Position numbers and translations under genes: made by a program | The notes under the pieces: generated by a model | The model's input: the letters and a program-made list of their open reading frames with translations, nothing else | Told to the model about the DNA's origin: nothing | The model's database searches: none | Source: Mesorhizobium atlanticum | GTDB lineage: Bacteria > Pseudomonadota > Alphaproteobacteria > Rhizobiales > Rhizobiaceae | Direction of reading: 5' to 3' | Length of the DNA stretch: 64,000 bases | NCBI RefSeq assembly: GCF_003289965.1 | Contig: NZ_QMBQ01000004.1 | Location: 1-64,000 of the forward strand | Part shown: in pieces, positions 5,601 to 61,690 of the stretch | Numbering within the stretch: the stretch's first letter is position 1 | Layout of the letters: the number at the start of each line of letters is the position of its first letter

Positions 5601-6091
5601 GCATTTTCTCCAACCCGGGCAAAGGCACGCGCTTTTCCGTCCTGTTGCCGATCGCGGCGGTCGCGGCGCCGCCGCGTGAGATCGGCAAGGCGCCGGCCCG
5701 CTCCGCCTCGACGCTTGCCGGGCTCGAAGTGCTCTGCATCGACAATGACGCGCGCATCCTCGACGGCATGCGGCTGCTGCTCGAAGGCTGGGGCTGCCAT
5801 GTCGAGACGGCTTCGGGAGCGGGAGAGCTTGTGCGGCCCGGCGCGGCGAGGCCGGACGTCGTGCTTGCCGACTATCATCTCGACGGCGGCACCGGCCTCG
5901 ACGCGATCGCCAGGCTGCGCGCCGTCTACGGCCAGGACCTGCCCTGCGTGCTGGTCACCGCCGACCGCTCCAGCGAGGTGCGCGCCGCCGCAAGCCAGCT
6001 CGACATTCCGGTCGTCAACAAGCCGGTGAAGCCCGCCGTGCTCCGCTCGATGATGGCAAGGGTCAGGCCGCTGGCGCCGGCGGCGGAGTAG
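2606..6091 (+). CDS. Hybrid sensor histidine kinase with N-terminal sodium/solute symporter-like sensor
   Basis: I place the start at GTG 2606, because an AGGGAGG ribosome site lies ~11 bp before it; this gives 1161 residues. Residues 1-~510 are a multi-helix SSS (sodium:solute symporter)-like region. A PAS domain (~640-755) and a coiled coil follow. HisKA has the variant H-box AAGHDILQPLNAARL (His ~809). The HATPase domain has NAIKY, DTGIGI and GLGLGLSIV, and a C-terminal receiver has a phospho-acceptor Asp near 1089 (VVLADYHLD). This architecture matches the NahK/ErcS/CbrA-like family of inner-membrane hybrid kinases. The ligand is unknown. The convergent LuxR-type regulator 12 bp away is the likely partner. 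Confidence 0.9.
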   Translation: MQGWFVVIIAIAYVTLLFAIASVGDRRAAASGLGRARPFIYALSLAIYCTSWTFFGSVGLSSERGLEFLGIYTGPVLVFVFGFPLLNRLVRLAKSEKITSIADFLGARYGKSFTVAAIATLIATIGAVPYIALQLKAISGSVSLMIEHYTGSPPSFDPFVSDISLVVAMLLALFAVLFGTRHADATEHQDGLVLAVAVETVVKLAAFIAIGLMVTFLIFGGPGDMFAKLAANGQVRQAMSYNTSLATWLVLTTLSGFAILMLPRQFYVTIVENRSEAELRTATWLFPLYLVAINLFVLPIAFAGLSLVGAKTSSDLYVLSLPLLGGHDVLAMAAFVGGLSAATAMVIVESVALSIMISNDLIIPLFVRRVIKTSASENEDWSTLILNVRRASIFILLFIAFLYYRESTNSARLSSIGLMSFAAIAQFAPALIGGLIWRRANGRGAALGMVAGIAVWGYTLLLPSLAGPGSDMVVHGLFGFEALRPQALFGTVGEPLNHGVLWSLSVNALFFVLGSLSRASVPLERIQAAIFVPREAGPMPSLRRFRTAVTVNDLKDTISRYLGVERTERSFQSFEKSASVSLHGKEQASMDVIRFSEQLLASAVGSSSARLILSLLFRRNDRDSKDAFKLLDDATEALQHNRDLLQIALDQMEQGITVFDRDFRLICWNRQYRLLFDLPDEMGQVGVSLDRILRHLAERGDIPADQRVTMLNRLTSFAGPWQMELKTSGRILELRSNPMPDGGIVATYADISGRVEQDLALKRANESLEQRVKTRTIELTRVNEELAQAQMLAEEANLGKTRFLAAAGHDILQPLNAARLYCSSLIEKAGKGPAGKAAINIESSLESVETILGAVLDISRLDAGAMKPEDIAFSLGGLLGQIGNDFRPLAAEKKLELKIMPSSLGVMTDRNLLRRLVQNLVSNAIKYTRKGRILVGVRRRGELAEIQVIDTGIGIAGDKLNTVFHEFTRLDEGVREAEGLGLGLSIVDRIARVLRLEIRIFSNPGKGTRFSVLLPIAAVAAPPREIGKAPARSASTLAGLEVLCIDNDARILDGMRLLLEGWGCHVETASGAGELVRPGAARPDVVLADYHLDGGTGLDAIARLRAVYGQDLPCVLVTADRSSEVRAAASQLDIPVVNKPVKPAVLRSMMARVRPLAPAAE

Positions 6092-6103
6092 AGGCAGAAG
6101 TAG

Positions 6104-6790
6104 CTAACTTACCGGCTGCAGCGGGTCATTGCCGATCTTGGAGAGCTGGATGACCGCCTGGGTGCGGCTGTCGACGCCAAGCTTCTGCAGGATGGCCGAG
6201 ACGTGCGCCTTGATGGTGGCCTCGGAAACGCCGAGCTCATAGGCGATCTGCTTGTTGAGCAGGCCTTCCGCCAGCATGCCGAGCACGCGTGTCTGCTGCG
6301 GCGTCAGGGCCTGCAGGCGCTTGATCAGGTCGGAGATTTCCGGGTCGCGCTCGACGCCGAGCTCGATGCCGGCGGGTGCCGCGATATCGCCGGCGAGCAC
6401 GGCTTGCACCGCGGCGCGGATTTCTTCCATGCTGGCCGATTTGGAGATGAAGCCGGAGGCGCCGAGATCGAGGGCGCGGCGGATGGTGACGGGATCGTCA
6501 TGGGCCGACACCACGACCAGCGGCACCGCCGGATGGATGCCGCGCAGCGCAATCAGGCCGGAGAGGCCGCTGGCGCCCGGCATCGACAAGTCGAGCAGCA
6601 CCATGTCGATATCCTCATTGGCCAGCACCAGCGCCTTGGCGCTTTCGAAATCGCCGGCCTCATGGATGGCGGCGACGTCACCGATGCCGGCCAGCGCCTC
6701 CTTCAGCGCGCCGCGAAAAAGCGGATGGTCGTCGGCAATGACGAAAGTGTGGCCCGACGGCAAATATTCCTCCCCCGATCCCATCATCAT
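6104..6790 (-). CDS. LuxR/FixJ-family response regulator
   Basis: 228 residues: an N-terminal receiver with the DD pair (VIADDHPLF) and phospho-acceptor Asp67 (VLLDLSMPG), and a C-terminal LuxR-type helix-turn-helix (LTPQQTRVLGMLAEGLLNKQIAYELGVSEATIKAHVSAIL). It binds DNA when phosphorylated. It lies tail-to-tail with the hybrid kinase, which suggests a cognate pair. The chosen start is the first of three tandem ATG codons (6790). An alternative is a TTG ten codons in, which has a much better GGGGGAGG ribosome site. A longer upstream frame exists but lacks coding character. Confidence 0.88.
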   Translation of the reverse strand: MMMGSGEEYLPSGHTFVIADDHPLFRGALKEALAGIGDVAAIHEAGDFESAKALVLANEDIDMVLLDLSMPGASGLSGLIALRGIHPAVPLVVVSAHDDPVTIRRALDLGASGFISKSASMEEIRAAVQAVLAGDIAAPAGIELGVERDPEISDLIKRLQALTPQQTRVLGMLAEGLLNKQIAYELGVSEATIKAHVSAILQKLGVDSRTQAVIQLSKIGNDPLQPVS

Positions 6791-6951
6791 TTTCGTGCTT
6801 CTTGCGGGGACCGGAATGATTATGCGGCCGCGCGGCGCTTTTTCAAGCGGCAAAGGCCGCGCATGGGGTTTTCCCCAGGAGCGGCCGGCTGTCGTTTGCG
6901 CAATTCCGGACGGAAAACCGCTGTGCACTTTTCCTGGAATTGCGCCCCGGC

Positions 6952-7389
6952 TCAGGTCTTCTGCTGGTTCAGCTTGGCGCCGCCGTCGCCGTCTTCCTTG
7001 TCCATGTCCTTGACGATGTCCTTGAAGGTCCGGAAGAAGCGCTCCATGTAGCTCATCGTCCTGTTGAAGTCCTCTTCGCTCGGCAGTTGCGACTCCAGCC
7101 GGGCGGAGAGCGAATTCTCGAGCTTGGCGACCCGCGCATCGAGGGCCTTGACCGAATTGTCCAGCCGGTCGATCTCGTCCTGGTAGGCGGCGCGCTCGTC
7201 CGCCGCCATCTTGCAGACGAGCTGACCGGCGCGCTCCTCGCAGATCGACATGGCGCCGGTCCTCGTATCCATGCGGACATAGCCGTTGGCCGACTTCTCC
7301 AGACGGTAGTGGTCGGTTTCCTCGGAATAGGCGGAAGCGGCAACTAACGAGCAAAGCGCCGCGGGGATCAGGATGTGCTGCAGACGCAT
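6952..7389 (-). CDS. Secreted coiled-coil protein of unknown function
   Basis: 145 residues from ATG 7389, which has a GAGGA ribosome site 4 bp upstream; an upstream in-frame start is less likely. It has a typical signal peptide (MRLQHILIPAALCSLVAASAYS), so the product is probably periplasmic. The mature part has a cysteine pair (SICEERAGQLVCKM) that could form a disulfide, then a long charged helix with heptad character (~65-100), and ends in an acidic-glycine tail. I do not recognise a family. It lies upstream of and divergent from the DUF952-pyrD genes. Confidence 0.7.
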   Translation of the reverse strand: MRLQHILIPAALCSLVAASAYSEETDHYRLEKSANGYVRMDTRTGAMSICEERAGQLVCKMAADERAAYQDEIDRLDNSVKALDARVAKLENSLSARLESQLPSEEDFNRTMSYMERFFRTFKDIVKDMDKEDGDGGAKLNQQKT

Positions 7390-7500
7390 ATCGTCCTCCA
7401 TGAGCCAATGAAGACGGGCTATCACAGGTTTGCGCCGGAAATGGGGAAGAGTCGAGCTTCAAGCCTTCCCCGCTCCTTCGGTTCAGACTATAGCGCGAGA

Positions 7501-7848
7501 ATGTCTCAGATTATCTACAAGATCGCCCCCGAGGCGCTTTGGCGCGAAGCCGAAAAGAACGGGCGCTTCACCGGCGCGCCGATCGACATCGCCGACGGCT
7601 TCATCCATTTCTCCACCGCCGCGCAGGTGCGCGAGACGGCGGCGAAACATTTCGCCGGCCAGACAGGTCTGCTGCTGATCGCCATCGACGGGGAGAAGCT
7701 GGGTGACGCGCTGAAATACGAGGTGTCGCGCGGCGGCGCGCTGTTCCCGCATCTCTACACCCCCCTCGCTCTCGACGCCGTCCTTTGGGCCAAGCCTTTG
7801 CCGCTCGGCGCCGGCGGCCACGAATTCCCGGCGCTGGAGGGCGAATGA
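7501..7848 (+). CDS. DUF952 family protein
   Basis: A 115-residue small cytosolic protein. The sequence from IIYKIAP through WREAEKNGRFTGAPIDIADGFIHFS is the hallmark of DUF952, a family with an ADP-ribosyltransferase-like/NUDIX-unrelated fold and no settled function. The ATG at 7501 is preferred over an upstream in-frame codon, since similarity begins here. Its stop overlaps the pyrD start in an ATGA arrangement, so the two are translationally coupled; this gene pairing is common in Hyphomicrobiales. Confidence 0.85.
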   Translation: MSQIIYKIAPEALWREAEKNGRFTGAPIDIADGFIHFSTAAQVRETAAKHFAGQTGLLLIAIDGEKLGDALKYEVSRGGALFPHLYTPLALDAVLWAKPLPLGAGGHEFPALEGE

Positions 7849-16431: not shown

Positions 16432-16505
16432 GCGGGTATGATGTAATGGTAGCCTGTCAGCTTCCCAAGCTGAACGCGCGGGTTCGATTCCCGCTACCCG
16501 CTCCA
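16432..16505 (+). tRNA. tRNA-Gly (anticodon CCC)
   Basis: The full cloverleaf is visible: acceptor arms GCGGGTA/TACCCGC (16432-16438/16495-16501), D-arm, anticodon stem TCAGC/GCTGA around the loop TTCCCAA (anticodon CCC), T-arm GCGGG-TTCGATT-CCCGC, and encoded CCA at 16503-16505. The 3' 47 bases form attL of the prophage. Integration restored the gene, so it should stay functional. Confidence 0.96.
16459..16505 (+). repeat. attL (tRNA-Gly 3' half)
   Basis: 47 bases from the anticodon stem to the CCA end, identical to 61644-61690. Flanking bases differ on both sides, which sets the exact core limits. Confidence 0.93.
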
Positions 16506-18206: not shown

Positions 18207-19226
18207 TCAGGTCGACATTGTCTGGTTGAGCCGTCTTATCCGCTCCTTGATCGCGGCGCCGCGGCTGACGTAGCGGCGTATGATGCGGGAGACGGTTTCT
18301 TCCTCCCAAGCCATGATCTCGGCGATCTCGCGCTCGGTAAGGCCCGCGGTGTAGAACTTCGTGCAGGCGGTGCCGCGCAGGTCGTGAAAGTTGAGGTTTT
18401 CGCCTTCAGGCCAAGCGTCCTTCTTCGCCTTCACGAATGAGCTGCCGAGGCCGTCCTTGACCCACGGCCGGCCTTTGCTCGATGTGAGGATCACTGGCGA
18501 GCGGCGCGGGATCCTGGCCAGCACGTTGCGCAGCGCGTCGTAAAGCGGGATCACCGCCTCCCGCCGGTGCTTGCTCTTGCCGGTCGTGATTGTGATCGCG
18601 TCCTCGCCGACATGTGACCAGGACAGGCGGATCAAGTCTCCGACGCGCAGGCCTGTGTGAGCGGCGAGGTCAACCGCGAAAGCGACCTCCTTCGAGCAGA
18701 CGGCCTTCAGCCGCGCGATATCGGCGTCGGTCCAGATAATCTCCGAGCGCGAGCCGGAATAGAGCTGCTTGATGCCTTCGCACGGGTTAGAGGCGATCGC
18801 GCCGCGGTCGACCTCGAAGGAGAGCACGCGCGACAGCACCTGCATGCCATAGTCGGCGGCGCGCGGCGTATCGGCGTATTTCGCGCGCCACGCCCGGATC
18901 CTCGGCCTGATCTTCTCAGGCCGGTCAAACTGGCGCACAGACAGCGCGCCGAAATGGTCGGCGATGCGGTCGAGCCACGGACCCCAATTGCGCCGCGTCG
19001 ATTCGGCGAGCTTCTTGTAATCGGCGCTGGCGCGATAGCGGATGATCGAGGCGCTGAACTTGTTGCTGTCCGGCGCCGCGCGACTGGCGATTGCCTCGTT
19101 ATAGGAGTCCTGAAACGCCGGTGTACCCGGCTCGCCCTTGATGGCCGGGCCGCCGCGCCAGGCGTAGTAGTAGACTTTGCCCTTGGCCTTGACGGTGTGA
19201 AGGCCCTTCAGTTCAACCATGACCAT
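18207..19226 (-). CDS. int: Tyrosine recombinase (prophage integrase)
   Basis: 339 residues from ATG 19226 (a second ATG at 19220). The N-terminal SAM-like core-binding domain is ~60-150 and the catalytic domain ~165-335. Catalytic residues visible are Arg194 (HTGLRVGD), Lys217/219, His281 and Arg284 (NFHDLRGT), Trp307 where many enzymes have a second His, and nucleophile Tyr319 (IIRRYVSRG). It integrates and excises the prophage at the tRNA-Gly core. It overlaps the preceding small gene by 14 bp. Confidence 0.93.
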   Translation of the reverse strand: MVMVELKGLHTVKAKGKVYYYAWRGGPAIKGEPGTPAFQDSYNEAIASRAAPDSNKFSASIIRYRASADYKKLAESTRRNWGPWLDRIADHFGALSVRQFDRPEKIRPRIRAWRAKYADTPRAADYGMQVLSRVLSFEVDRGAIASNPCEGIKQLYSGSRSEIIWTDADIARLKAVCSKEVAFAVDLAAHTGLRVGDLIRLSWSHVGEDAITITTGKSKHRREAVIPLYDALRNVLARIPRRSPVILTSSKGRPWVKDGLGSSFVKAKKDAWPEGENLNFHDLRGTACTKFYTAGLTEREIAEIMAWEEETVSRIIRRYVSRGAAIKERIRRLNQTMST

Positions 19227-19413
19227 GCTTCGCGTCGAACTCCGCCAGCTCGCGATCAAGGTCATCTTCATCAGCATTGGCGGGTTTCGTAAAGTGCCAG
19301 CGGTGTGTGCCGTCCGGCAGCACGTCGAGCGTGCACGGCTCGACCCCGGCCTGCCGGAGGGCGCACAAGGCCTTGACTAAGTCGTTTGGGCGAAGAGATA
19401 TGCGCTTGCTCAT
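19213..19413 (-). CDS. Small protein co-encoded with the integrase
   Basis: 66 residues from ATG 19413, with GGGGG 8 bp upstream. It starts MSKRISLRPNDLVKALCALRQAG and ends in an acidic helix rich in Asp/Glu. Its position directly before int in the same operon is where excisionases or integrase cofactors often lie, but no winged-helix motif is clear. Function unknown. Confidence 0.6.
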   Translation of the reverse strand: MSKRISLRPNDLVKALCALRQAGVEPCTLDVLPDGTHRWHFTKPANADEDDLDRELAEFDAKHGHG

Positions 19414-21591: not shown

Positions 21592-22155
21592 TCAGCGTGG
21601 CGACATGTGCGTGACTTTCGCCGCCCAAACGAGCTCAACGTCCTCGATCGGACTCTCAGTCTGTGAGTGGAGGTTATAATAGCCAGGACGCGGACCGCGC
21701 ATCAGCTTCTTGACCAAGACTCGTCCATCGACCGTCTCGCAGATCACAACCTTGCCGACGAGATCAGGCGTTACGGGATTGCGGACCTCGTCATAGTACA
21801 CAAGCCATTGGTTGAAGAATGAACCAAGCGAATCGCCGCGTACTTCCAACGCCACTGTCTTCTCGTTGCCTTCGGGCGGCATTGGAACCTCATCCAATGG
21901 ACCTTGGGCGTCGACGTAGAAGTGAGCAGCTGCGCCGGCGCCGACGTATCCAAGCACCGGAACCGTCAACTCTTCCATAATGGCGGAGGGCTGCACGCCA
22001 AACGCTTTGGCGGCCCGAGCCATATAATCCGCCGTTAGCCGACGCTCTCCTCGCTCCAGCTTGATGAACTGGCCGCGGGACACTCCCATCGCCTGGGCGG
22101 CCTGGTCGTGTGTCCAGCCCGCTTCTTCGCGCAGTTCTTTGAGCCTGTTTCCCAT
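21592..22155 (-). CDS. Phage repressor, HTH plus S24 (LexA/CI-like) peptidase domain
   Basis: 187 residues from ATG 22155. An N-terminal helix-turn-helix (RLKELREEAGWTHDQAAQAMGVSRGQFIKLERGER) is followed by a LexA-fold domain with a probable cleavage site Ala73-Gly74 (GYVGAG), nucleophile Ser109 (VRGDSLG) and Lys149/150 (VLVKKL). This is the CI-type repressor that keeps the lysogen, and it should self-cleave on RecA activation. Five matching operators flank it, one overlapping its own start codon, which implies autoregulation. The longer upstream frame crosses the operators and is not used. Confidence 0.9.
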   Translation of the reverse strand: MGNRLKELREEAGWTHDQAAQAMGVSRGQFIKLERGERRLTADYMARAAKAFGVQPSAIMEELTVPVLGYVGAGAAAHFYVDAQGPLDEVPMPPEGNEKTVALEVRGDSLGSFFNQWLVYYDEVRNPVTPDLVGKVVICETVDGRVLVKKLMRGPRPGYYNLHSQTESPIEDVELVWAAKVTHMSPR

Positions 22156-22164
22156 AGCGGGGAA
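22148..22164. promoter_or_regulatory. Repressor operator over the repressor start codon
   Basis: 17-bp site TTTCCC-N5-GGGGAA spanning the repressor ATG (22153-22155); binding would block the gene's own transcription or early elongation. Confidence 0.6.
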
Positions 22165-22191
22165 AGTGGCATGAGAGTGAAGTTGCTGTCG

Positions 22192-22208
22192 TTCCCCATA
22201 TTGGGGTT
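22192..22208. promoter_or_regulatory. Repressor operator OR2-like
   Basis: 17-bp site TTCCCC-N5-GGGGTT overlapping the -35 of the rightward promoter. Confidence 0.7.
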
Positions 22209-22236
22209 GACAATGTTCCCCGGATTGGGGAAGTAT
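22207..22236 (+). promoter_or_regulatory. Rightward early promoter (PR-like)
   Basis: Perfect TTGACA at 22207-22212, an 18-bp spacer and AAGTAT at 22231-22236, just upstream of the Cro-like gene. Operators overlap the -35 and fill the spacer. Confidence 0.72.
22216..22232. promoter_or_regulatory. Repressor operator OR1-like
   Basis: 17-bp site TTCCCC-N5-GGGGAA inside the PR-like spacer; 24 bp centre-to-centre from the upstream site. Confidence 0.72.
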
Positions 22237-22246
22237 CCGCGCCATT

Positions 22247-22471
22247 ATGAAGCTCTCTGAATTCATGCGCATGAATGACCTGTCTCCTGACGCGCTGGCG
22301 GCGCTCTTGGGCGACGTCTCTGCGTCTGGTGTTCGTAAATGGGCCAACGAAGAGCGCATTCCGCGCAAGGATCAGATTGAGCGCATCGTTGAAATCACCG
22401 ACGGCCAGGTGATGCCAAACGACTTCTTCAGCATCCCCGAGCGCTTCGTAACGCGAGAGGTGGCCGCATGA
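22247..22471 (+). CDS. Cro-like HTH regulator
   Basis: 74 residues. MKLSEFMRMNDLSPDALAAL, then SASGVRKWANEERIPRKDQIERI, is an XRE/Cro-type helix-turn-helix covering nearly the whole protein. It is the first gene of the rightward operon from the PR-like promoter and divergent from the repressor, the canonical Cro position. It probably competes for the same operators during lytic growth. It overlaps the next gene by 4 bp. Confidence 0.82.
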   Translation: MKLSEFMRMNDLSPDALAALLGDVSASGVRKWANEERIPRKDQIERIVEITDGQVMPNDFFSIPERFVTREVAA

Positions 22472-56278: not shown

Positions 56279-56356
56279 TCTCACATACAATTTTGCTAAA
56301 ATGCCCGGAACCGGACCGCTGCACGCGGCTTGAGTCGCGGTTGTTGGGATGTGTTT

Positions 56357-57241
56357 ATGCGTAACGCCGTCGAGCATCTGAAGTTCACCAAGCCGATGGA
56401 GCCGGAGCGGTTCGACAATCCGCCTGCGGGCGCCGAGTGGAGCCACGAAATCAAATTCGACGGCTACCGGACGCAGGTTATCAAGGATGCCGACGGCATC
56501 CGTCTCTACACCAAGGGCGGCATTGACTGGACGGCAAAATACCGGCCGCTCGCCGCGGAAGCCGGGAAGCTGAACGCGGAGAGCTTCATCATCGAGGGCG
56601 AGACGATCGTGCTCAATGAGAAGGGCCTGTCGGACTTCCATGCGCTCCGCTCGGCCATCACGCGCCGGCCGCAAGATCTCTATCTCGTCGCCTTCGATCT
56701 TCTCCACCTTAACGGCCACGATTTGCGTGACATGCCGCTCAAGGACAGGCGCGAGGTGCTGCAGGCGCTTGTTCCAGCCGGCGGGCGCATCCAGTTCAGC
56801 GAGGCGCTGCCTGGCACGGGCGACGCCGTCTATCATCTCGCCTGCGAGGCAAACCACGAAGGCATCGTCTCGAAGCGGCTGGACAGCGTCTATCGCAGCG
56901 GCCCGACGACGATCTGGCGCAAGATCAAATGCTTCGATGAGAAGGTGATGGAGATCATCGGCGTGCAGCGCGAGCGCGGCAAGCCGGCGATGGTGTTGAT
57001 GGCCGACAAGGGCCGCTACATGGGCGGCGCCTTCGTCACCTTCAAGGCAGACAAGCGGCAGGCGCTATGGGATCGGGTGCAGGGCAAGGTCGGCGCCCCG
57101 CCGCCGAAGGGCCTCAAAAAGCAAAAGGCGGAATGGCTGAAGCCGGGCCTTTCAGGCAGAGTGCGGTTCTTGAAGGGCGAAGAGACGCTTCGCCACGCAA
57201 TGCTGCGCGATTTCTGGGAGGATGACGATGGCCGTGGCTAA
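56357..57241 (+). CDS. ATP-dependent DNA ligase
   Basis: 294 residues from ATG 56357. The adenylation motif SHEIKFDGYRTQ has the lysine nucleophile (Lys33), and FIIEGETIVLN, LVAFDLLHLNG, EGIVSKRLD and WRKIKC are motifs III, IIIa, IV and V. It resembles the ligase domain of LigD-type enzymes without polymerase or nuclease. It seals nicks using ATP. In this element it may serve replication or repair of phage DNA. Confidence 0.9.
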   Translation: MRNAVEHLKFTKPMEPERFDNPPAGAEWSHEIKFDGYRTQVIKDADGIRLYTKGGIDWTAKYRPLAAEAGKLNAESFIIEGETIVLNEKGLSDFHALRSAITRRPQDLYLVAFDLLHLNGHDLRDMPLKDRREVLQALVPAGGRIQFSEALPGTGDAVYHLACEANHEGIVSKRLDSVYRSGPTTIWRKIKCFDEKVMEIIGVQRERGKPAMVLMADKGRYMGGAFVTFKADKRQALWDRVQGKVGAPPPKGLKKQKAEWLKPGLSGRVRFLKGEETLRHAMLRDFWEDDDGRG

Positions 57242-57749: not shown

Positions 57750-57907
57750 CTAGGGGACTTTCTCAGTTGAGCGGCACTGATCCCGCTTAAGGCACGACGT
57801 TCAATTCCAGCGCCGCCTGGCGCTTCGGCTCTATAGCCTTAGGGGTGGCGCCCCTGGCATCCATCACAAAGGCCATGACTGGCTCCCTGCGACTATCAGG
57901 CCTTAGT

Positions 57908-57922
57908 GAACGAAAAGAGAAC
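57908..57922. promoter_or_regulatory. LexA (SOS) box
   Basis: GAAC-N7-GAAC, the exact alphaproteobacterial LexA site (reverse of GTTC-N7-GTTC), with an A-rich spacer like that of recA-type boxes. It lies 55 bp before ATG 57977. Confidence 0.7.
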
Positions 57923-57928
57923 GAAAGA

Positions 57929-57946
57929 GTCAAGAGACCTCTTGAC
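57929..57946. repeat. 18-bp palindrome beside the LexA box
   Basis: GTCAAGAG/CTCTTGAC separated by 2 bases, 6 bp after the LexA box. It may be a second regulator site or part of the promoter and leader. Confidence 0.45.
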
Positions 57947-57976
57947 CGGGCAGGAATATGTTCCTCATTTCAGCAT

Positions 57977-58294
57977 ATGCCGGAACAACCCGAGAAGTGG
58001 CCGAGAGGTGCCACGTGGACCCTGATGCATGCCCATGATGCAGGGCAGGTGGCCGGCATCCGTTGCGGCAAATGCAATATCAGACGCTTCTACAAGCCGA
58101 ACGAGCTGCGCGAGGTCATCGGTAACGTCACGATCGATGAAGTTCGGGAAAAGGTTCGGTGCCAGAAATGTGGCAGCCGCGAGTGGATGGACGCCGAGCT
58201 CTTCCATCCAACCGGAGAACAGGCGCACACGATCCGATATCGGCGCCTGGTCCAGATCCGATGGGAGAAGCGGGTGATCTGGCGGGATGAGTGA
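57977..58294 (+). CDS. Zinc-ribbon-like protein under a LexA box
   Basis: 105 residues from ATG 57977; the longer frame from 57845 would cover the LexA box. Two knuckles, IRCGKCNIRRFYKP and VRCQKCGSREWMD, suggest one zinc site. The N-terminus is Trp- and Pro-rich. The LexA box upstream implies DNA-damage induction. Homologues I recall are near SOS or imuAB-type genes in rhizobia. Function unknown. Confidence 0.62.
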   Translation: MPEQPEKWPRGATWTLMHAHDAGQVAGIRCGKCNIRRFYKPNELREVIGNVTIDEVREKVRCQKCGSREWMDAELFHPTGEQAHTIRYRRLVQIRWEKRVIWRDE

Positions 58295-58330
58295 CACATA
58301 GCTCGCTTTGGCCCGGCAAAGCGCATTGCC

Positions 58331-60679
58331 TTAGCGTATTTGCAGCAGCCACTGGAATTGCGCAAACTGTAGTGGGAAGTCGCGGGCAAAATACCGAACC
58401 ACCTTCGGATTTTCCAGGATCCGGCCCAAATAACCATGAGCCGCGACGAGGCCGAGAGCCCGAACACCATGGGTGGCCACGGCGTTTAGAAACTCATGGG
58501 TCACTTCACCAAATTCAGCCTCCATCGATATGACTTGGGCCGCCTTGATGCCGTGGAACCGCTTCCGCCGCGCCGAGGGATCGGCAAGGTGGGATCGCGG
58601 CGTTAGTGCGACAAGGGTCTTGGCGAAGTCGGCCCTCACGCTACCCAAAGCCAGCATGATCTTTGCCATCTCAATCTGCCTGTCGGAGCTAACCTCGCGC
58701 AAGTAAGAAAAGATGATCGGAGGAACAACGCAGTTCTCGAGCAAGCCGAGAGCGTCGGCGCAAATTCCTTCAATCTGGTGCGCTGCAAGCGGGCGTTCCG
58801 CCCTCATCAGCGCGAGATGGGACGGCGGGATCGTTTCCATCAGCATGCTCGGCATCGTCTCGATCCCCTCGCTCTTCAGCAACTCTCGAAATGCTTTGAC
58901 GGTCATCAATTGGCGCATAGCCTGGGCTGTTCTGTCCCAGTGCTTTCGCAGTTCGTTCGTTGATGTCACGAAGCGACGCATTCGCATGCGTTCATGGCTA
59001 AAGTTTCTCAGCAAAACGTACCCGCGCAGAGGGTTCGACGGCTCAGGTGCATGCTTGAGACCGGCGAAATGGCGACCAGGGCTGCCGATACCGCGATGGA
59101 GCTGACGCATCGTCGGTGGGCTGATTTGGTCAGGCGCACGCCTGGCCATGGCCACCAGAATATCCAGTGTGGCAAACAAGAAGCTATCGAGCGGGCAGCC
59201 ATTCTCTGCCTTAAGGACGTGGAAGACACGCTTCGCCTCATTCCCCGGCAAAATGAGGAAGTCGCGTATCGCGGTATCGTCAGGCTGCATCCTGATCAAT
59301 ACCGACAAGTCAGCCCCCGCCAATCTCCTCCTTCTGAACGCCCAGCGCGGGTATCCGTGCCGTGAGAGGCGACAGCGCGCGATCCAGATCGCAACCGTGA
59401 ATTCGCCGTTTACCGTGACGAGCTTACTGTCCGGGTCATATCGAGCCGAACCGCCCGCGTCCTCTATCGCTGCCGCCAGCTCATGGATGACTTCCTGCCT
59501 CCGGTCACGAAGATCAACATTGACCTCGATATAATCGTAGTTGTGCAGTGGCTGATACCCGATCCGCCGATATACTTCGGCGAGTGTCCGGAAGCGCCGT
59601 TTCAATCGGGAGCTCGAGGGACAACCGCGGGCCGCGTTGATTATCCTCCCCGACAGCGCTCCTTTCCTTTTGAGAAGTTTGGCCAAAGGAGCCAGCATCT
59701 GACTGTCGGTCATACGGAACAGACGCGCCTTTGCCTCGACCTGGGCACGATCGAACAACTCGGGGCTGACAATTGGCGCGGATGCATTCTCGACGCGGAT
59801 CCAGGCGCTAGCGGGATTGCGGGTCCGCTGACTTGTCAGCCTGCTGCTGGAGCGGTTCCAGATGACGTTGCCGATGTATTTCTCATGCGTCAGAACCGTC
59901 TTCACCGAACGGATCGACCAGGGCCGGTCGTGATCCGTTACCATCCCGCGGGCGTTGAGCGCGTTGGCGATCTCCCTCTTCGTCTTTCCCTTGTTTACAA
60001 ATTGGTCGAAAATCCATCGGACCGTCTCAAGCTCCTCTGGCGGACCGAGCACCCTGACCACGCGGTCCGATGCAAGGCTTTTGCACTCTGTTCGCTTCAG
60101 GATGCCTTTGGGTTCACCCGACCGGTCCACTAGCAGACGCCGGAAGCCATAGCCCGGCGCCGCACCTCCGCGGAATCCCATTTGAATGATCCGGCTCTGG
60201 CCGATGAAGCACCTCTGCGAAAGCATGCGACTGTACTCGGCGGCCATCGTCCGCTTGATAGCTTTGAGCACGTCAGAGCCGATGGTTCCGTCATTTGCGA
60301 ACTGCTCGGCGCAAAATTCGATCCGCACTCCAGCCGACTGGCATCTATATTCGTAGGATGCGCTTTCATCGACGTTTTGAAATCGACCCCAGCGACTGAC
60401 GTCGTAGACCACTACCGTCTCAAAATCTGCGAACCCGTTTTCCACATCGAACAGCAGCTTTTGTAAGCCCGGGCGCCCTTGAAGACTGAGCCCGCTACGG
60501 CCCGGGTCCTCATATGTCGCGACAATGTCATACCCCATGATGTCCGCATAACTGCGGATCGCATCCTTTTGGTTCTCAAGTGAGTAGATTTGCTGATCGG
60601 TGGACATGCGAAGATATTGAGCCGCACGGCCTCGTCGCCTCGCTGTTGGAGGGCCGTGGGCCGTTCCAGACTTGTCCAT
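58331..60679 (-). CDS. Large serine recombinase fused to a RepB-like partition C-terminus
   Basis: 782 residues from ATG 60679; a GTG at 60703 is possible. The N-terminal resolvase domain (~20-165) has AQYLRMSTDQQIYSLENQ (nucleophile Ser in RMST) and SRWGR. A Recombinase domain (~190-290) and an unassigned middle (~330-580) follow. The C-terminus (~590-782) matches the RepB plasmid-partition domain (PF07506): ENCVVPPIIFSYLREVSSDR, the RQIEMAKIM helix and AAHGYLGRILENPKVVRYFA. Resolvase-type enzymes cut and rejoin at att sites. What the partition-like part does here is unknown. Confidence 0.83.
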   Translation of the reverse strand: MDKSGTAHGPPTARRRGRAAQYLRMSTDQQIYSLENQKDAIRSYADIMGYDIVATYEDPGRSGLSLQGRPGLQKLLFDVENGFADFETVVVYDVSRWGRFQNVDESASYEYRCQSAGVRIEFCAEQFANDGTIGSDVLKAIKRTMAAEYSRMLSQRCFIGQSRIIQMGFRGGAAPGYGFRRLLVDRSGEPKGILKRTECKSLASDRVVRVLGPPEELETVRWIFDQFVNKGKTKREIANALNARGMVTDHDRPWSIRSVKTVLTHEKYIGNVIWNRSSSRLTSQRTRNPASAWIRVENASAPIVSPELFDRAQVEAKARLFRMTDSQMLAPLAKLLKRKGALSGRIINAARGCPSSSRLKRRFRTLAEVYRRIGYQPLHNYDYIEVNVDLRDRRQEVIHELAAAIEDAGGSARYDPDSKLVTVNGEFTVAIWIARCRLSRHGYPRWAFRRRRLAGADLSVLIRMQPDDTAIRDFLILPGNEAKRVFHVLKAENGCPLDSFLFATLDILVAMARRAPDQISPPTMRQLHRGIGSPGRHFAGLKHAPEPSNPLRGYVLLRNFSHERMRMRRFVTSTNELRKHWDRTAQAMRQLMTVKAFRELLKSEGIETMPSMLMETIPPSHLALMRAERPLAAHQIEGICADALGLLENCVVPPIIFSYLREVSSDRQIEMAKIMLALGSVRADFAKTLVALTPRSHLADPSARRKRFHGIKAAQVISMEAEFGEVTHEFLNAVATHGVRALGLVAAHGYLGRILENPKVVRYFARDFPLQFAQFQWLLQIR

Positions 60680-60744
60680 CGCCTTGCACCGTCGTGCCGG
60701 CACTTTAAACTAGCGGGCGACAGCCTGCCGGCAAGAGGAACGGA

Positions 60745-61005
60745 ATGCGCCAGTACGTCGGCTTGATCCACAAAGAGGACGCCAGCGATTACGGAGTGTC
60801 CTTTCCTGACTTCCCCGGGGTCGTTACGGCTGGCGCAAGTCTCGGCGAGGCGCGCGAGTTAGCCGAACAAGCTCTCGCCTTCCATGTAGAGGGGCTGATT
60901 TACGATGGCGAGGCTGTTCCTGACCCCACTTCCCTCAAGAAGGTCCTGGCAGACGCAGCTGGTGAGGAACTTACGACCATCATGATTCCACTTAGGACCC
61001 TGTGA
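60745..61005 (+). CDS. HicB-like antitoxin, no HicA partner seen
   Basis: 86 residues with the HicB core: YVGLIHKEDASDYGVSFPDFPGVVTAGASLGEARELAEQALAFHVEGL. HicB normally pairs with the small RNase toxin HicA, with which it forms an operon. No HicA reading frame is visible on either side. It is divergent from the serine recombinase. Either an orphan antitoxin or a stand-alone RNase-fold regulator. Confidence 0.8.
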   Translation: MRQYVGLIHKEDASDYGVSFPDFPGVVTAGASLGEARELAEQALAFHVEGLIYDGEAVPDPTSLKKVLADAAGEELTTIMIPLRTL

Positions 61006-61171
61006 ACGCCTTTCCTCTTTGGCAACCATGGCGATCAACTGCCGGGAAACCGTGATTCACTTCGTGAGCGACCTCCGCCGCCGTTCCGCCGCAATGCGCC
61101 CGCACTTGGGCGAAATTGCCCCTGTTTTCAACCTGTTGTCATTTCCCTGGGGCTTCAGAGGAGTTCTAGTG

Positions 61172-61492
61172 ATGATCATCAAGAAGGCGATTCTGGCCGT
61201 GCTTATGACCGCGGCCCTTGCCGGTTGCGAGACGCAGACCGAAGGCCAGCAGCGGGCCACCACAGGCGCTCTGATTGGCGGCGCTGGCGGCGCCCTCGTC
61301 GGCCAGGCGATCGGCGGCAACACCAAGAGCACGGTGATTGGCGCCGCAAGCGGTGCGCTGCTCGGCGCCGTCGTCGGCAGCGCCACCACCCCGCAGGAGC
61401 CGCGCGGCCGTCAGCTCTGCCGTTACCAGGACCGCTACGGCCGCATCTACACCGCGCCCTGCGACGACCGCTATTACAACGGCGATTATTGA
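61172..61492 (+). CDS. Glycine-zipper lipoprotein (17-kDa antigen type)
   Basis: 106 residues from ATG 61172 (AGAGGAG site). It has a lipobox (LMTAALAGC), then a Gly-zipper (GALIGGAGGALVGQAIGG, GAASGALLGAVVGS) and an Arg/Tyr-rich end. Such lipoproteins lie in the outer membrane. The gene sits inside the att repeats but looks like a host gene in style. It ends in a strong terminator. Confidence 0.8.
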   Translation: MIIKKAILAVLMTAALAGCETQTEGQQRATTGALIGGAGGALVGQAIGGNTKSTVIGAASGALLGAVVGSATTPQEPRGRQLCRYQDRYGRIYTAPCDDRYYNGDY

Positions 61493-61507
61493 TCGAGGTC
61501 CGACGGG

Positions 61508-61643: not shown

Positions 61644-61690
61644 AGCTTCCCAAGCTGAACGCGCGGGTTCGATTCCCGCTACCCGCTCCA
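61644..61690 (+). repeat. attR (copy of the tRNA-Gly 3' half)
   Basis: 47 bp identical to 16459-16505. The upstream acceptor and D-arm are missing here, so this is a tRNA remnant and not a functional gene. It marks the right end of the prophage. Confidence 0.93.

Follow-up and report, generated by a model that had tools for sequence, protein, structure and literature searches.

A serine recombinase fused to a RepB-like protein in a Mesorhizobium prophage, with a proposed accessory role for the RepB-like part

We found that the minus strand of the window (the whole 64,000-nucleotide stretch of Mesorhizobium atlanticum contig NZ_QMBQ01000004.1 analysed here) carries a single gene in which a large serine recombinase runs in frame into a RepB-like protein. 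Judged by its relatives, most of which are encoded by two or three genes, this fusion is a derived state. The pairing of the two proteins, together with their fusion, suggests that recombinase and RepB act jointly in moving DNA and not in the sharing-out of plasmids, and fusion, gene overlap and co-evolution indirectly support a coupling of RepB to recombination. We propose, with confidence that is evenly balanced, that RepB serves a mobile serine-recombinase module as its accessory or directionality subunit and that it is fused to the enzyme in this case.

The gene occupies 58331-60703 and comprises 790 codons from a GTG at 60703 to the stop at 58331; an alternative ATG at 60679 gives 782 codons. 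An earlier sequence-only reading had given no strand, and the plus strand of the same coordinates contains many stops in the frame translated. That reading had described one continuous gene with a resolvase and recombinase module and a RepB C-terminus, and Pfam bore this out with three significant domains, all far over their cut-offs. These are Resolvase (PF00239; 60209-60622, residues 28-165 counted from the GTG, E 9.5e-23), Recombinase (PF07508; 59729-60040, residues 222-325, E 5.8e-24) and RepB (PF07506; 58355-58783, residues 641-783, E 4.6e-26). The RepB match, whose significance in a profile search had been a point in doubt, covered profile positions 44-185 of 185 with a score of 92.4 bits, the cut-off being 30. 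A PHROGs search likewise assigned residues 11-332 (counted from the ATG) to an integrase family (E 2.2e-60). The R-M-S motif of the Resolvase domain was invariant in all ten aligned recombinases, and its serine is presumably the catalytic one. Residues 341-531 (59111-59683) form a recombinase C-terminal module without a Pfam match and with a poor structure model (pLDDT 53.9 for the recombinase). At this place in the C-terminal half, other large serine recombinases usually, though not universally, have a zinc ribbon; the sequence-only reading had seen none in the fused protein, and the Pfam scan likewise returned no such family at E <= 1. The fusion point is the former RepB start codon, an ATG at 59108-59110 (residue 532) in frame with the recombinase. 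The RepB-like part that follows (58334-59110, residues 532-790) gave a structure model with a pLDDT of 75.2, and a Foldseek comparison of this model with the PDB returned nothing at E <= 0.001 (best E 0.87).

The relatives of this gene are predominantly split. Each of the best seven of 182 matching plasmid records is annotated with two genes, a recombinase and a RepB C-terminal domain protein, and the two genes overlap shortly in three of these seven. This overlapping or abutting operon form was seen on plasmids of Mesorhizobium, Agrobacterium, Pseudomonas, Roseomonas and Paraburkholderia. More distant plasmids, such as pAt of Agrobacterium fabrum C58, carry a recombinase followed by two RepB genes, labelled in the annotation as a recombinase family protein and RepB C-terminal domain proteins. 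All ten genome-contig loci found by pattern had recombinase and RepB in two frames (one, L003, ends at a contig end). Among 146 genomes of the genus, 115 matched PF07506 and 74 matched the fused protein at 1e-20, some of the latter only via other recombinases. We took 72 distinct places among the matches listed as a same-genus census, which is not a total, and dropped three with a broken recombinase (L110, L111 and L112). The 69 cassettes kept comprised 56 with recombinase and RepB, nine with recombinase and two RepBs, three fused and one without RepB (L094). A broken relative in G028 lies outside the census, as does the excluded locus of G138 (L040), where we noted a 502-residue frame (6042-7550, minus strand) that joins the recombinase C-terminal module to RepB without a catalytic domain. 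No further stop-free recombinase frame running into RepB occurred among the listed matches of an order sample (41 of 397 genomes matched at E <= 1e-40, members of the own genus among them) and an overlapping phylum sample (398 genomes, 37 matching), with two candidates scored per genome. Viral contigs yielded no relative by pattern, and the one record of a phage collection that covers at least 80% of the query is of the three-gene type and comes from a contig that is unverified. The plasmid relatives and the census thus replace the view of the fused protein as a class of its own with that of a fusion derived from an operon of separate genes.

Among the three-gene loci we also observed a divergent small protein, of a size typical of regulators, upstream of the recombinase; of 24 loci listed, 11 have it (L016, L041, L106, L109, L119-L121, L123, L124, L127 and L128). 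By eye these proteins share a motif, K-T...W-T-G-A...R...W-L...G-P...H-L, and three representatives had no Pfam match.

Upstream of the fused gene, a divergent HicB-like antitoxin gene (60745-61005, plus strand), which has a match at 34 of the 62 places with a two-gene or fused cassette, is followed by the leader (61021-61168) and coding sequence (61169-61492, both plus strand) of a YMGG-like glycine-zipper gene. The latter belongs to the core genes of the genus, with matches in 143 of 146 genomes (E <= 1e-20), and each of the 62 two-gene or fused places, counting broken copies and L094, had a zipper match nearby, partial in a few cases. The leader is conserved over about 148 bp, and the sequence to its left varies between groups in the 43 loci aligned. 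Beyond the zipper gene, the flanks of 37 of the 43 loci fell into one single-linkage cluster, the window lying outside those loci. We compared 20 presumed empty loci with 20 occupied ones plus L038, L042 and the window. Conservation of the leader ended sharply at about -148, but most cassette-free pairs showed the same edge, so it may be a promoter edge. The leader with its gene (61021-61492) could mark a hot spot of insertion, or the leader could serve regulation. No clean junction was found in the empty and occupied pairs at the zipper gene, and three "empty" loci held kept or apparent cassette fragments (L170, L175 and L171), which in L170 (G001) and L171 (G137) are probably deletion remnants. 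A scan of 105 loci for the leader core found one copy in 79, none in 26 and two in none; the window's own genome has two copies, one per zipper gene. The constant neighbour and the sharp edge thus leave an attachment site at the zipper gene as no more than a candidate, the edge being non-specific, some "empty" loci holding fragments and a second core copy being absent. At the other end, 14 diverse cassettes shared no clear motif 3' of RepB relative to shuffled sequence. The k-mers that barely exceeded this background, each present in 4 to 6 of the 14 cassettes, fit a conserved convergent neighbour gene in some. Behind the fused gene such a convergent gene (57845-58294, plus strand) has, by eye, paired cysteines, and visual inspection showed similar DNA following RepB in L042, L052, L058 and L086.

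The copy in the window lies inside a tailed-phage prophage of 45 kb (16432-61690) in tRNA-Gly(ccc). A 47-bp attachment-type repeat, the 3' part of the tRNA gene, marks the right prophage end at 61644-61690 and has an exact partner at 16459-16505. Besides an integrase (18207-19277, minus strand), judged by eye to be tyrosine-type, and a repressor (21592-22368, minus strand), the prophage encodes a terminase, portal, protease, tape measure, tail fibres and endolysin; a gene at 56330-57241 (plus strand) resembles an ATP-dependent DNA ligase by eye. A 3.2-kb stretch (58323-61495) with the fused, HicB-like and zipper genes is common to the window and a second species (G075) at 90%, and the flanks of this stretch showed no match between the two in the sequence compared. 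G075 has the stretch at a site that is occupied, on contig C3 of the genome to which the window belongs, by a split cassette, so the prophage carries a second copy as cargo.

We next asked how closely the parts of the cassette vary together, using distance correlations over 58 two-gene or fused cassettes with 2000 permutations. Recombinase and RepB correlated at 0.871, and recombinase and glycine-zipper gene at 0.104; no permutation reached either value, so the link to the zipper gene is weak but not nil. As a control, the zipper gene and its own leader correlated at 0.622. The zipper gene is short and its two halves correlated at 0.321 only, so the low value of 0.104 is partly noise. The tight correlation within the pair and the weak one with the zipper gene imply that recombinase and RepB co-evolve and move together, and that differing pairs have come to adjoin the same core gene. 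This pattern fits a module replaced or inserted at a constant place, and homologous exchange would explain it equally well.

It is unlikely, in our estimate, that RepB merely regulates transcription of the module by binding an operator upstream of the recombinase and takes no part in strand exchange, in which case the fusion would unite a regulator with an enzyme. The divergent genes and short intergenic region upstream of the recombinase would suit such a regulator, and DNA binding is a general property of the RepB family. However, the three-gene loci often already have the divergent regulator-size protein described above, and RepB correlated slightly more closely with the C-terminal part of the recombinase than with the catalytic part (0.832 versus 0.803), small as this difference is.

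To place the RepB part among its relatives, we built profile models separately from the first and the second RepBs of three-gene operons (14 of each) and ran them on 59 two-gene or fused RepBs. The second-RepB model scored higher in all 59 (median 114.4 versus 40.3), and the RepB of the window scored 104.5 with it and 27.5 with the first-RepB model. By these scores the RepB half of the fused protein traces back to the second of the two RepBs in a three-gene operon. The first RepBs of pAt and p12939-PER both matched ParB_N (PF02195), and the second RepB of pAt did so only weakly, under the cut-off; Pfam gave no match to it in the window protein or in the RepBs of L013, L014 and L042.

These findings bear on the idea that RepB is a partition or maintenance protein of the excised circle or of a host plasmid, the fusion coupling recombination with maintenance, which we regard as improbable. 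The name of PF07506 stems from plasmid partition, many copies are on plasmids, as the matching plasmid records attest, and the first RepB of both three-gene operons tested has ParB_N. Against this, ParB_N went unmatched in the fused RepB and in all three RepBs tested from two-gene cassettes, and the Mesorhizobium copies adjoin a core gene. The sequence-only reading had raised maintenance of the excised circle, and also a tethering of recombination sites; both are conjectural. ParB partition works by a nucleotide clamp, and a clamp-type role is unlikely for the fused RepB because the ParB_N match is absent. Furthermore, no ParA-like gene was noticed from open reading frames or annotation directly beside the module in the window and seven annotated plasmid regions. 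Neither repA nor repC was noticed among the open reading frames beside the fused gene, the neighbours being the HicB-like gene, the glycine-zipper gene and short frames without Pfam matches. The earlier label "partition-type" therefore does not hold as a statement of function; with neither ParB_N nor a ParA-like neighbour noticed, it is a family label and not a likely role.

The fused frame is shared between species. G075, whose sequence is listed as one contig, has the same frame as the window, with 92.6% protein identity over 789 residues and no net gap, and the two form one clade in the recombinase tree (support 100/100). Over 790 codons the pair had a dN/dS of 0.237, with 0.224 for the recombinase half, 0.215 for the RepB half and 0.263 for residues 530-790. 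In 61 split control pairs, which are mutually non-independent, the medians were 0.142 for the recombinase and 0.261 for RepB, and the fused-pair recombinase value lies near the top of the control range (0.094-0.253). Both halves of the fused gene are under purifying selection. The former RepB start ATG persists in the fused genes without a ribosome-binding site ahead of it: its duplex energies with the 16S tail were +1.2 and +2.2. Taking the best RepB start within 45 bases in 54 of the 56 two-gene loci (the other two had no candidate start), the median was -6.5 and none was weaker than -1.7. About a quarter of these split signals are weak too (upper quartile -3.05 versus a background median of -2.5). 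The best start of the fused genes in the same 45-base range reached -3.6, 39 bases upstream, still weaker than the split median. On these grounds it is likely, although not proven, that the fused gene makes a real one-chain protein.

A third fused case (L039/L045, in G005) is sister to a split copy elsewhere in the recombinase tree (100/95), from which its junction differs by one extra G in a G-run. Either a slip of recent date or an error in sequencing may have produced this frame, and only one secure fusion origin was therefore counted.

The same data weigh on the view that an indel joined the two frames of a neutral or decaying gene and that nothing depends on the fusion, which we hold to be quite improbable. 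Most RepB-bearing cassettes (65 of 68) are split, copies with stops or deletions exist, the G005 case is one G from its split sister and may be an error, the stem branch leading to the fused pair is long (0.39), and the junction segment (residues 523-560) had a dN/dS of 0.559, on eight changes only. However, two species have the same fused frame, with a dN/dS of about 0.2 in each half and no net gap. The sequence-only reading had named separate genes with a stop lost only here as the outcome that would undo its claim, and had asked for conservation of the junction. The relatives are indeed two genes and most cassettes are split, but the frame is not confined to the window. Single-base indels are a common assembly error and G005 looks like one, but an artefact in the window is hardly credible, since a separate genome whose frame is fused in the same way, with 93% protein identity, largely refutes it; with it falls the explanation by a stray lost stop.

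We therefore return to the accessory-subunit proposal. RepB would bind DNA near the recombination sites and touch the recombinase, and would steer synapsis or direction, that is, integration versus excision; the fusion would set recombinase and RepB at one to one. The recombinase would insert, remove or exchange the module itself beside the glycine-zipper gene. A broader version, which we offer only tentatively, is that across Pseudomonadota the RepB-like proteins govern the direction or synapsis of large serine recombinases and so form a new class of factors. The window would then hold a natural one-chain recombinase and directionality factor, an evolutionary equivalent of the engineered integrase-RDF fusions, in a lineage whose partner protein shed the ParB nucleotide-binding domain, splitting DNA docking from partition.

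The fused gene is evidence of the "Rosetta stone" kind that serine recombinases and RepB-like proteins, a common pairing undescribed in the literature searched, work as one machine. If RepB controls direction, this would explain RepB-labelled genes beside recombinases without ParA, and natural recombinases that come ready-fused would be on offer as tools. For dissecting the role of each part, the two-gene, three-gene and fused forms make a ready set. The sequence-only reading knew of no description of such a fusion, and at the level of titles and the beginnings of abstracts we likewise found no report of the pairing or fusion in the open PMC literature. PMC11137137 contains both RepB and serine recombinase, and the term RepB is absent from the main text, so far as covered, of a survey of Mesorhizobium mobile elements.

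Among known systems, the fused protein resembles large serine recombinases, or serine integrases, in its significant PF00239 and PF07508 matches and its R-M-S motif. It differs in having a Pfam-less C-terminal module instead of a zinc ribbon, and the system differs in its RepB-like partner, adjoining or fused. With repABC RepB it shares the significant PF07506 match, but it lies behind a recombinase, without a ParB_N match and with no repA or repC neighbour noticed. The three-gene operon, exemplified by pAt, has a homologous recombinase, and the RepB of the window is closer to the second RepB of such operons; in the window, however, the first RepB and any ParB_N match are absent and the remaining two genes are fused. 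PDB entry 9dxd, by its name alone, describes one chain of YokA plus YotN, and would be alike in joining a recombinase and an accessory protein. Engineered phiC31 and Bxb1 integrase-RDF fusions also place recombinase and accessory protein in one chain, and according to PMC5737554 they act as unitary enzymes. By analogy, a one-chain architecture of this type can work, RepB as RDF being our proposal; those fusions are laboratory-made, whereas that of the window is natural and its partner is RepB-like.
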